DNA from: a virus | Virus record (IMG/VR): IMGVR_UViG_3300025086_000113 | Coordinates: 1 to 34,164 of that record | DNA length: 34,164 nucleotides | Reading direction: 5' to 3' (one strand) | Shown: piece by piece, positions 31,064 to 34,164 of the stretch | Layout of the letters: every line of letters begins with the position of its first letter | How positions within the stretch are numbered: position 1 is the stretch's first letter | Made by a program: the position numbers and the translations under genes | The notes under the pieces: generated by a model | The model's input: the letters and a program-made list of their open reading frames with translations, nothing else | Database searches by the model: none | What the model was told of the DNA's origin: nothing

Positions 31064-31582
31064 ATGGCATTATCAAAATTTTTAAGGGCTTTCTTAACGG
31101 TGAACCCTTTAGCAAGAACAAGCAAATCTAAATCTCTTGCAGAGACTAAAGCAGGACTTGAAAGGATTTTGCAAGAGGGTAGTGAGGCTACTGCTGCAGA
31201 GAGAAAGAAAGCACGTCAAAGATTGCGTGAATTAGACAAAGCAGAGGCTACTGAAAATGTACAGCGTTCAGCAAAGCAGTCTAAAGCAGCACCAGAAAGT
31301 GCAGCAAAGAAAGAGAAACTTGCTCCACCTGCCTTAAAAATAGATTCATTACCTGATGACTTTAATAAAGGGGGAAAGGCCACAAAGAAAGTACCCGTTA
31401 TTTCTATTGGCGTAGGCATGGCTGAAATGAAAAAAGGCAAAGCCAAGATGATGCGTGGGGGTATGGCGAATAAAAAAGAGCATATGTATGTAGCAGGTGG
31501 AAGTGTCACAGATAAGATGAGTCCCGGTCTACGTGCTTTAAATAAAACACGCCCTGACGTTGTTAAAAAAATATTAAGTTAG
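31064..31582 (+). CDS. Lys-rich protein with an RGGM motif
   Basis: 172 residues, ATG 31064 with GAGGAG upstream. A short N-terminal hydrophobic part (ALSKFLRAFLTVNPLA) is followed by a Lys/Ala/Glu helix (about 25-90) and a Gly/Lys/Met segment (GMAEMKKGKAKMMRGGMANKK, about 120-143) with VAGGSVTDKMSPGLRALNKTRP after it. The RGGM motif recurs in the 664-residue virion protein and, in tandem, in the 137-residue protein encoded at 32104. The final SPGLRALNKTRPDVVKK phrase is also common in marine phages. Probably virion-associated; binding to DNA or membrane is inferred from charge. Confidence 0.6.
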   Translation: MALSKFLRAFLTVNPLARTSKSKSLAETKAGLERILQEGSEATAAERKKARQRLRELDKAEATENVQRSAKQSKAAPESAAKKEKLAPPALKIDSLPDDFNKGGKATKKVPVISIGVGMAEMKKGKAKMMRGGMANKKEHMYVAGGSVTDKMSPGLRALNKTRPDVVKKILS

Positions 31583-31586
31583 TTTT

Positions 31587-32114
31587 GTGCATCCCGTTGA
31601 AGCTGATATAAGAAAGTGGTCACATGAATTTCTTGAAGTACCTAATGAGAAACTTAATGGACTACCACCGTGTCCCTACGCCAGACAAGCATGGCTAGAT
31701 AATAAGGTTGTATTTAGCATAAACACAGGGCTAGATGGTTTAGCTAAAGAGGTAGCAGACTTTAATGAACACGACTATGATATAGTTGTATGGGCTAATG
31801 AAGTGCTACCCGAAATGGAATACCTAGATGGATGGTGTGATGGCGTAAACGAAGCCATGTCTATTGCAGGTAAAGATATGCACCTTATGGTGTTTCATCC
31901 AGACTATAGTGCAGAAGAAGCAGGTCTGGACTTTTTAGTTGAAGAAGGTGTGACAGATGACACACTAGAATATTGCATGGTGTTCGTGCAATTATTATCT
32001 AAGCTAGATGATGCAGCATTAAGTCTGGAAAAGTCTGGCTATTATAAACACTTCCCGGTGGATGTGTTTCATTCCCTAGTAATAGACAGAAGGAGTTTAA
32101 GGAATGGCAAATGA
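31587..32114 (+). CDS. Conserved protein, unknown (weak DUF1415 resemblance)
   Basis: 175 residues. The start is GTG 31587, with no good ribosome site; coupling to the preceding gene, which ends five bases upstream, is likely. The sequence HPVEADIRKWSHEFLEVPNE then LPPCPYARQAWLDNKVVFSI has a CPYA phrase like the CPFA of DUF1415. The remainder (YDIVVWANEVLPEMEYLDG, DMHLMVFHPDYSAEE, EYCMVFVQLLSKLDDAALS) is alpha/beta with alternating strands and helices, suggesting a ferredoxin-like fold. It resembles marine phage hypotheticals I recall. No catalytic residues identified. Confidence 0.55.
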   Translation: MHPVEADIRKWSHEFLEVPNEKLNGLPPCPYARQAWLDNKVVFSINTGLDGLAKEVADFNEHDYDIVVWANEVLPEMEYLDGWCDGVNEAMSIAGKDMHLMVFHPDYSAEEAGLDFLVEEGVTDDTLEYCMVFVQLLSKLDDAALSLEKSGYYKHFPVDVFHSLVIDRRSLRNGK

Positions 32115-32517
32115 TGAAATGTCGATAGACGAAATTAATAGACGTATGCAAAGTGAACTGAATGCATATAAATCTAGATTGAAAGATCAAGGGTTAGACG
32201 AAGAGCAAATTAACAGGGCTATGCAAGACTTCTTTGTAAAAAGAAAAACGAAGAAAAAAGCGAAAAAAATGACAGCGGCTAAAGGTGGTGTAGCTAAAAA
32301 GAAAATGGCTGGCGGTGGCATGGCTAAAATGGCTAAGAAGAAAATGCGTGGTGGCGGTGTTGCAGCTAAGAAGATGCGTGGCGGTGGAATGGCGAAACGT
32401 AAAATGGCCGGAGGCGGTATGGCTAAAATGGCAAAGCGCAAAATGATGGGCGGTGGCATGGCTAAAATGGCTAAGAAGAAGAAAATGATGCGTGGTGGAA
32501 TGGCAAAGAAGAAGTAA
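32104..32517 (+). CDS. Lys/Gly/Met-repeat protein (histone-tail-like)
   Basis: 137 residues, ATG 32104 with AAGGAG eight bases upstream, overlapping the previous gene by 11 bases. The N-terminal ~45 residues are an ordinary acidic-basic helix (SIDEINRRMQSELNAYK, EEQINRAMQDFFVKRKTKK). From residue ~58 to the end it is a repeat of a GGGMAKMAK(K/R)KM-type unit, with KMRGGGMAK and KMMGGGMAK variants. The tail has about 35 percent Lys plus Arg, and Gly and Met make up most of the rest. It should bind nucleic acid or acidic surfaces. A SET-domain methyltransferase gene starts at its stop codon (TAATG), so its lysines are candidate methylation targets. The link is inference. Confidence 0.6.
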   Translation: MANDEMSIDEINRRMQSELNAYKSRLKDQGLDEEQINRAMQDFFVKRKTKKKAKKMTAAKGGVAKKKMAGGGMAKMAKKKMRGGGVAAKKMRGGGMAKRKMAGGGMAKMAKRKMMGGGMAKMAKKKKMMRGGMAKKK

Positions 32518-32867
32518 TGCCGTATGTATCAGATTCGTCTGTACATGGGCAAGGTGTTTTTGCAGATAAGGACTATGCTCAAGGAGATACTATTGAGTTG
32601 TGTCCTTATCTCATTGCAGACAAGGATGACTTTGCAGACACTTGTATCTTACATGACTACATGTTTTACTCGCCTTACGAAGACGATGAAGATTATTTTG
32701 TACCGCTTGGTCTTGCTATGGTATACAATCATAGTGAAACTCCAAACGCTGAATGGAATATTGCAGATGAAGATGAAAGATTTATTAGGTTCTTTGCTGT
32801 TGACGATATAAAAAAGGGTGAAGAAATACTACATGATTATGGTGAACAGTATTGGGAAAGTAGATAA
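32517..32867 (+). CDS. SET-domain protein methyltransferase
   Basis: 116 residues, TAATG overlap with the Lys-rich gene. The SET landmarks are in order: SSVHGQGVFADKDYAQGDTIE (residues 7-27), PLGLAMVYNHSETPNAEW with the NHS-x2-PN motif at 71-77, FFAVDDIKKGEEI (92-104) and LHDYGEQYW (105-113), including the catalytic-region Tyr of DYG. It has no pre- or post-SET cysteines, like other small prokaryotic SET proteins. The family transfers methyl groups from S-adenosylmethionine to protein lysines. The target is unknown: candidates are the adjacent Lys-rich protein, a host ribosomal protein or RNA polymerase. It overlaps the next gene by one base. Confidence 0.85.
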   Translation: MPYVSDSSVHGQGVFADKDYAQGDTIELCPYLIADKDDFADTCILHDYMFYSPYEDDEDYFVPLGLAMVYNHSETPNAEWNIADEDERFIRFFAVDDIKKGEEILHDYGEQYWESR

Positions 32868-33234: not shown

Positions 33235-33438
33235 ATGCCCCCACCTCAAACTAAAAAGAAAAAAGCTAAAAGCAAAGTTAATCAGGCTGGTAATTATACA
33301 CAGCCAGAGTTGAGAAAAAGAATATTCAATAGAATTAAAGCTGGTTCAAAGGGCGGTAGGCCCGGTCAGTGGTCAGCAAGAAAAGCACAAATGACTGCCC
33401 TAGCTTATAAAAGGGCAGGTGGTGGATACAGAAACTAA
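33235..33438 (+). CDS. Small basic protein, DUF5872-like
   Basis: 67 residues, ATG 33235 with AGGATAGGAT directly upstream. A Lys-rich N-terminus (PPPQTKKKKAKSKVNQAG) leads to ELRKRIFNRIKAGSKGGRPG and QWSARKAQMTALAYKRAGG. The KGG-PGQWSARKAQ phrase is typical of a family common in cyanophages and pelagiphages (DUF5872, from memory). It is predicted to be a short helix pair with nucleic acid-binding potential. The stop TAA shares its last base with the start of the oxygenase-like gene. Confidence 0.7.
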   Translation: MPPPQTKKKKAKSKVNQAGNYTQPELRKRIFNRIKAGSKGGRPGQWSARKAQMTALAYKRAGGGYRN

Positions 33439-34164
33439 TGCCACCACGTAACCACAGGGACTGGACAAAGACACCCAAGGTAGAATATATAAACTCCCTT
33501 ATATACTCTGACTATTATTTGTATGAGCAGGAATTAGAGAATATCTTTTCTAAGGTCTGGGTTCCTATGTGCCATTCCAGTGAATTACCAAATTTAGGTG
33601 ACTTCAGAAAGACGCAGATAGCCTTACAGAATGTCGTAGCTGTACGCTTTGAAGGTGGCGTAGTTAGAACATTCCTTACAGATAAGGTGCAAGCACCTGC
33701 TGGCAATGACCTATCTTTAACATACCATTCAGGTAGCTGGACTGAACTACCATGTGAAGTCAAACATGGTGGTATGGTCTGGACTACCCTAGATACAAAC
33801 CCGTCTATGAGTGTAGATGAGTGGACTGCTGGCGCATTTGATTGCATAGCCGATGCCATAGACACTGAAGAAATGGAAGTGTTTCACTACCATAAGGCTA
33901 TCATAGATACTAACTACAAGCTGTGGCATGACACTAACAGTGAGTTCTACCACGACTTTATGCACTACTTTAATCGTGTGTCAGGATTCAACGATGAATA
34001 CTTTGCTAGAAAAAATATACCGTTTGATAACGGACACGTCAACGTCAGTAGCTTCACAGTTAACTACGAGGAATACGATGGCTTTGAGGATAGAGGAGAA
34101 CTTAGTTTCCCTAACCTCCCTCCAAACCAATGGTATATGGTTGACCTTTTCCCCGGATTTAATT
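33438..34164 (+). CDS. Rieske oxygenase-like protein (methanesulfonate monooxygenase alpha-like), 3'-truncated
   Basis: The frame starts at ATG 33438 (TAATG overlap) and is open to the window end: about 242 residues are visible. The N-terminus (YEQELENIFSKVWVPMCHSSELPNLGDF, residues 29-56) matches the opening of ring-hydroxylating oxygenase alpha subunits. The catalytic side has NYKLWHDTNSEFYHDFMHYFNR (159-180), with E169, H172 and H176 in place of the family's D/E-x2-H-x3-4-H mononuclear iron ligands. Between them the expected Rieske CxH...CxxH is missing: residues 60-115 hold only C106 and no CxH. I recall that HMO-2011 carries a gene annotated as methanesulfonate monooxygenase. If the cluster is lost, this may not be an oxygenase. 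The C-terminus is outside the window. Confidence 0.7.
   Translation, partial: MPPRNHRDWTKTPKVEYINSLIYSDYYLYEQELENIFSKVWVPMCHSSELPNLGDFRKTQIALQNVVAVRFEGGVVRTFLTDKVQAPAGNDLSLTYHSGSWTELPCEVKHGGMVWTTLDTNPSMSVDEWTAGAFDCIADAIDTEEMEVFHYHKAIIDTNYKLWHDTNSEFYHDFMHYFNRVSGFNDEYFARKNIPFDNGHVNVSSFTVNYEEYDGFEDRGELSFPNLPPNQWYMVDLFPGFN

Follow-up and report, generated by a model that had tools for sequence, protein, structure and literature searches.

A phage gene for a Rieske-less oxygenase subunit is probably the catalytic half of a methanesulfonate monooxygenase-type enzyme split in two in SAR116 bacteria

The oxygenase-like gene at the end of the viral sequence analyzed here (IMG/VR record IMGVR_UViG_3300025086_000113, positions 1 to 34,164; this whole stretch of 34,164 nucleotides is called the window) encodes a relative of Rieske oxygenase alpha subunits of the MsmA type, which is devoid of the Rieske cluster and has an intact iron motif. 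We refer to this protein as R. SAR116 bacteria have two paralogues of the msm alpha subunit, R and a second protein, F, each degenerate where the other is intact. We think it rather likely that the phage gene is the catalytic half of a split methanesulfonate monooxygenase-type oxygenase and works by joining the F complex of the host; phage R, on this view, would probably function only as a spare for a divided host enzyme. The missing motif itself is already known: in 2015, the "MsmA" of phage HMO-2011 and one of the two "MsmA" proteins of its host, IMCC1322, were reported without explanation to have no Rieske motif (PMC4433239). What is new is a complementary host protein, F, as the likely reason for the missing cluster in phage R. 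We found no paper describing the complementary degeneration of F, although this is not proof that it is unpublished.

The window contains 242 codons of the R gene in a frame that is open at the window end, and the 3' third of the gene is absent; D301 and the C-terminus of the window protein were for this reason read from relatives. Those relatives, up to 97% identical, put full-length R at about 360 residues (among the matches listed, the closest viral ones are 94–97% identical), and the third iron ligand, assigned by alignment as D301, falls past the window end. The gene starts within a TAATG in which the stop codon of a 67-residue basic protein overlaps the oxygenase start at 33438 (Table 1). 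Pfam and PHROGs searches with the truncated window protein returned nothing informative, and full-length relatives were used instead: PF00848 was accepted in the 97% identical relative L002 (31.3 bits; curated cut-off, 24.9), the Pfam search gave no accepted match to the Rieske domain PF00355 in full-length relatives, and the N-terminal segment of R matched the N-terminus of biphenyl dioxygenase alpha by phmmer. A sequence-only reading of the window had placed the E169, H172, H176 helix exactly where we find it and had called the CxH...CxxH cluster motif absent. Indeed, the 242 residues include neither CxH nor CxxH, and no phage homologue has the ligand set; that reading had also counted a single cysteine, C106, between the N-terminal opening and the helix, where the window protein has three in all (45, 106, and 136).

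Table 1. Features at the 3' end of the window.
Feature	Position	Strand	Basis or remarks
67-residue basic protein, upstream neighbor	33235..33438	+	phrog_17747, 1.3e-32
R: Rieske-less MsmA-type oxygenase alpha subunit, catalytic half (probable)	33438..34164	+	ORF, residues 1-242 of ~360; 97% identical full-length relative L002:465-1544; PF00848 match in relatives; fold model
N-terminal segment, residues 1-45 (MPPRNH..W....)	33438..33572	+	Conserved; 75% mean pairwise identity among phage proteins
Rieske-domain shell, residues 46-117	33573..33788	+	Fold kept; CxH and CxxH loops replaced or deleted
Catalytic domain (SRPBCC/PF00848), first part, residues 144-242	33867..34163	+	PF00848 at 144-349 in L002
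Iron-site motif E169-x2-H172-x3-H176	33942..33965	+	Invariant in phage R, host R, and canonical MsmA; lost in all F

Alignment with MsmA and structural modeling, two of the checks proposed with the sequence-only reading, both bear out its description of the protein. In the alignment, iron ligands are common to R and MsmA and Rieske ligands are found only in MsmA. AlphaFold gave a poor model with phage sequences only (pLDDT 51), and inclusion of host R and MsmA rows in the alignment raised the pLDDT to 84 (pTM 0.86), with the strands of the Rieske shell above 90. The model has the alpha-subunit fold and superposes over residues 16-357 on complete Rieske oxygenase alpha subunits, Rieske shell included (best PDB match, 7q06_D, Z 31.9, rmsd 3.0 over 322 residues; Foldseek E down to 3e-20), with only the cluster loops replaced or deleted.

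The Rieske cluster is absent from every one of about 80 full-length phage homologues, which come from different contigs and have intact reading frames. Among the 65 distinct full-length sequences none has the Rieske ligands, and in all of them E169, H172, H176, and H299-E300-D301 are invariant. A normal MsmA that was frameshifted, truncated, or misassembled could have been suspected because the gene is interrupted by the window end, but an artefact is refuted by so many intact homologues with the same ligand loss, and we give it practically no credence; a frameshift or an intact motif, either of which had been named as grounds for abandoning the idea of a lost cluster, was found in none of these homologues. 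Mean pairwise identity among phage R is 96% for residues 161-342 and 55%, with indels, for residues 46-117. Median dN/dS, taken from unsaturated pairs because synonymous sites are near saturation in most pairs, is 0.017 for the catalytic domain and 0.131 for the Rieske shell. These contrasts point to strong selection on the catalytic domain and none for cluster binding in the shell.

This pattern also weighs against the earlier suggestion, said to fit the location of the gene among small structural and basic proteins, that R is a binding, decoy, or virion protein reusing an oxygenase fold. The place of R beside small late genes is indeed conserved across viral loci (between a small basic protein and lysozyme/terminase genes; the 67-residue basic protein is present in 43 of 81 loci, and directly upstream of R in 42), but such a place says nothing about membership in the virion. 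The most constrained part of the protein is the catalytic domain with all of its iron ligands (dN/dS about 0.017, compared to 0.13 elsewhere), and the orthologue of phage R is a chromosomal gene of a metabolic operon, with msmE, F-msmB-msmC-R, and C1-tetrahydrofolate genes. We therefore regard a decoy or virion role as very improbable. A few genes upstream in the window, a small SET-domain protein is encoded at 32517-32867 (PF00856, 7e-14; possibly a protein methyltransferase), and at 32104-32517 and 31064-31582 lie genes for lysine/methionine/glycine repeat proteins (KKMRGGGMAKMAK), whose basic tails are of low complexity.

A scan of bacterial genomes returned two types of relatives. Canonical MsmA has about 410 residues, contains CXH-X26-CXXH, and is 50–59% identical to phage R in the best tblastn segments, which span nearly the full length; host R has about 362 residues, is Rieske-less, is 73–80% identical to phage R, and occurs mostly in SAR116 genomes. 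In a sample of the SAR116 family, 12 of 61 genomes gave a match, with R present. F was found directly in 11 of these 12, and the remaining genome has the 3' end of F at a contig edge. None of the 12 showed a full-length MsmA alongside R. Host R typically closes an operon in which msmE, on the opposite strand, is followed by F, msmB, msmC, U, and R; F-msmB-msmC-U-R adjoining msmE is the order in most SAR116 loci long enough to judge, and two genomes have F and R about 12 kb apart, not in one operon. The 3' flank of host R in many genomes carries genes for a LysR regulator and a TauE-type exporter, and genes read from sequence as panB, fhs, and folD. U (L083:4953-5789, L163:11055-11882) is a conserved protein of about 275 residues, encoded upstream of R, with no Pfam match; it is a possible structural partner, analogous to NdmE, or a chaperone. 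In one genome (G029; 2,753,527 bp in a single contig), which we take to be IMCC1322, the host of HMO-2011, msmC and U are separated by a three-gene molybdopterin oxidoreductase set (L163:6412-10999, within the split msm operon). The literature describes such genes in this group as dmsABC, which adjoin msmA in SAR116 surveys (PMC8547437), or as soeABC, sulfite dehydrogenase genes that occur in the SAR116 clade (PMC12262181). If the set does encode a sulfite dehydrogenase, it would use up the sulfite product.

F is a protein of about 800 residues that has an MsmA-like N-terminus and keeps the Rieske domain intact; its catalytic domain has degenerated, and it is fused to an FAD reductase (PF00355, Pyr_redox_2, and Reductase_C in Pfam, with PF00848 vestigial). 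In the F of G029, NFKLNHDRTIKFHQDFMK stands in place of the helix NYKLWHDTNSEFYHDFMH and no HED segment is left, so that this one protein shows both the homology and the ligand loss. Each of the 12 F sequences keeps the four Rieske ligands (CHCH) but not those for iron. The reverse holds in all 18 R from bacterial genome records (2 of which sit on phage-like contigs) and in all 14 phage R tabulated, and both ligand sets are present in 17 of 17 canonical MsmA. Conservation follows the retained half: identity in the Rieske region is 91% among F, 71% among host R, and 53% among phage R, and in the catalytic region it is 41% among F, 92% among host R, 95% among phage R, and 91% between host and phage R. 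That electrons must come from elsewhere, the first of two alternatives in the sequence-only reading, is thus well supported, because host F, with its Rieske cluster and fused reductase, shares an operon with host R. At one locus (L165:13689-16072), F is split at the domain junction into two ORFs, one oxygenase-like (330 aa) and one for the reductase (465 aa).

R is common in viral contigs, with at least 597 matching stretches; many ocean phages carry it. F was not found there: no viral match includes its Rieske half, and the two matches found are both limited to the reductase part. Nor did the 81 viral loci contain msmB, msmC, msmD, or F. Among named phages the best match is Puniceispirillum phage HMO-2011, a virus of SAR116 strain IMCC1322, with 69% identity over the part of the protein in the window; its homologue, gp61, is annotated as methanesulfonate monooxygenase. 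Among isolates with a related terminase, R is present in HMO-2011, with its SAR116 host, but missing from Roseobacter and SAR11 phages whose terminases are 48–84% identical; this distribution, with one SAR116 isolate as its basis, agrees with a gene of use only in the presence of F. Two contigs binned as Rickettsiales and Hellea (L097 and L098) have R without F, and one of them (L097) has ribonucleotide reductase- and glutaredoxin-like genes; because both look viral, R may also occur outside HMO-2011-type phages.

In phylogenetic trees, phage and host R together form one clade relative to canonical MsmA (support 100/100), F forms one clade relative to canonical MsmA in the tree of the Rieske half (100/97), and host R is a single clade (100/99). 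When the tree is rooted on MsmA, phage R is paraphyletic around the host R clade, although the test does not reject one clade of all phage R (p-AU 0.30). Host R, with its 91% catalytic identity, is a chromosomal orthologue of phage R, as would be expected if the phage gene is a host-derived auxiliary metabolic gene. One could envision, as a possible though doubtful history, that reciprocal loss produced two mutually dependent paralogues, that phages made the catalytic half mobile, and that phage R acts only in F-bearing hosts, which would bind the gene to infection of SAR116; host R, for its part, may come from the phage pool or have been traded with it.

The complex of R and F, its electron route, its methanesulfonate substrate, and the benefit to the phage are what we infer from sequence. 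In Rieske oxygenases, electrons reach the iron of an alpha subunit from the Rieske cluster of its neighbor. A mixed R/F oligomer, together with MsmB and the ferredoxin MsmC, would rebuild a complete electron path, in which electrons would pass from NADH to the FAD of F, perhaps through MsmC, to the Rieske cluster of F, and on to the iron of R, O2, and the substrate; the step from the cluster of F to the iron of R would cross the interface between subunits, as in NdmC/NdmD. The phage would supply extra R only, to be inserted into the host complex, and would probably gain raised or sustained sulfonate oxidation and C1 supply during infection; alternatively, phage R may replace a subunit that wears out. 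The operon and homology suggest methanesulfonate as the substrate of R, the oxidation of which yields formaldehyde and sulfite (PMC4928673). Because C1 genes lie downstream of host R, a route to folate-bound C1 units for nucleotides is suggested.

Two other ways of accounting for the same active site have to be considered. R could be autonomous, taking electrons directly from a soluble donor such as host MsmC or another reductase, with F not needed. MsmC carries a PF00355 Rieske domain of its own and is encoded in the same operon, so that it could feed R while F had another role, and the predicted fold of R is complete except for the cluster loops. However, autonomy leaves unexplained both the reciprocal losses and the 91% conserved Rieske domain on a catalytically dead F in genomes that bear R, and we consider it improbable. 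Less probable still is that phage R enters host alpha oligomers as a regulatory or poisoning (dominant negative) subunit, sparing O2 and NADH or redirecting C1 flow. The same oligomer interface would serve such a subunit, and phage R is without the last glutamate of the host AAE C-terminus, but a poison needs no intact active site, and phage R has invariant iron ligands in a catalytic domain that is under extreme purifying selection and 91% identical to that of host R. As to the C-terminus, 77 of 82 phage R rows (L082:6844-7926 and L002-L081, one row being the truncated window) end in AA after a variable stretch, the exceptions ending in AV or AS, whereas AAE is the ending of host R and of many canonical MsmA. 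A reading of the AA tail as an ssrA-like degron is on this ground less likely; as the canonical and host tails are mostly AAE, the phage tail looks like an inherited tail minus its last residue.

If phage R does act as the catalytic half beside host F, this would be a natural oxygenase split by complementary degeneration, in which electron transfer between subunits is obligatory and one half is carried by a phage. The Rieske-less "MsmA" of HMO-2011-type phages is cited as a sulfur-cycle auxiliary metabolic gene even though alone it is without the cluster it would need, and host F gives this puzzle a testable partner. The Rieske-bearing "MsmA" ascribed to SAR116 on the basis of the CXH-X26-CXXH motif probably corresponds to F, a Rieske-reductase protein with a dead catalytic domain, which suggests that msmA surveys counting by the Rieske motif would miss the real catalytic subunit.

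R resembles MsmA, the alpha subunit of MsmABCD, in its iron ligands, in about 75% identity over the catalytic region, and in an N-terminal MP.RNH motif; it differs in being about 50 residues shorter and in having no CXH-X26-CXXH, which has been treated as characteristic of MsmA (PMC4433239). Phage R, moreover, has no msmB, msmC, or msmD neighbors, whereas host R belongs to an F-msmB-msmC-R operon. HMO-2011 gp61, with its annotation as methanesulfonate monooxygenase (Kang et al. 2013, as cited by PMC4433239 and PMC4928673), shares with window R both the gene neighborhood and the missing Rieske motif; it has so far been discussed as an auxiliary metabolic gene of the MsmA type that stands alone. 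In architecture, R and F resemble the caffeine N7-demethylase NdmCDE, in which the Rieske-less NdmC works with a Rieske domain fused to the reductase NdmD (PMC4408171). Both systems have an oxygenase without a Rieske cluster, and in both the missing Rieske domain would be provided in trans on a reductase chain, here by a predicted pairing with F, which is found in host genomes only. F differs from NdmD in that it is paralogous to MsmA, retains a vestigial catalytic domain, and has an FAD reductase of the Pyr_redox_2 type, and the R/F system differs from NdmCDE in that MsmB and MsmC are kept and one half is also phage-borne. No GST-like NdmE was identified; U, which has no Pfam match, is a candidate for that part. 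Among phage genes, a parallel is offered by cyanophage psbA, whose product D1 is a catalytic subunit that the phage supplies and that must join a host complex. R would differ from D1 in being the product of a split enzyme, presumably unable to complete its reaction without the host partner.
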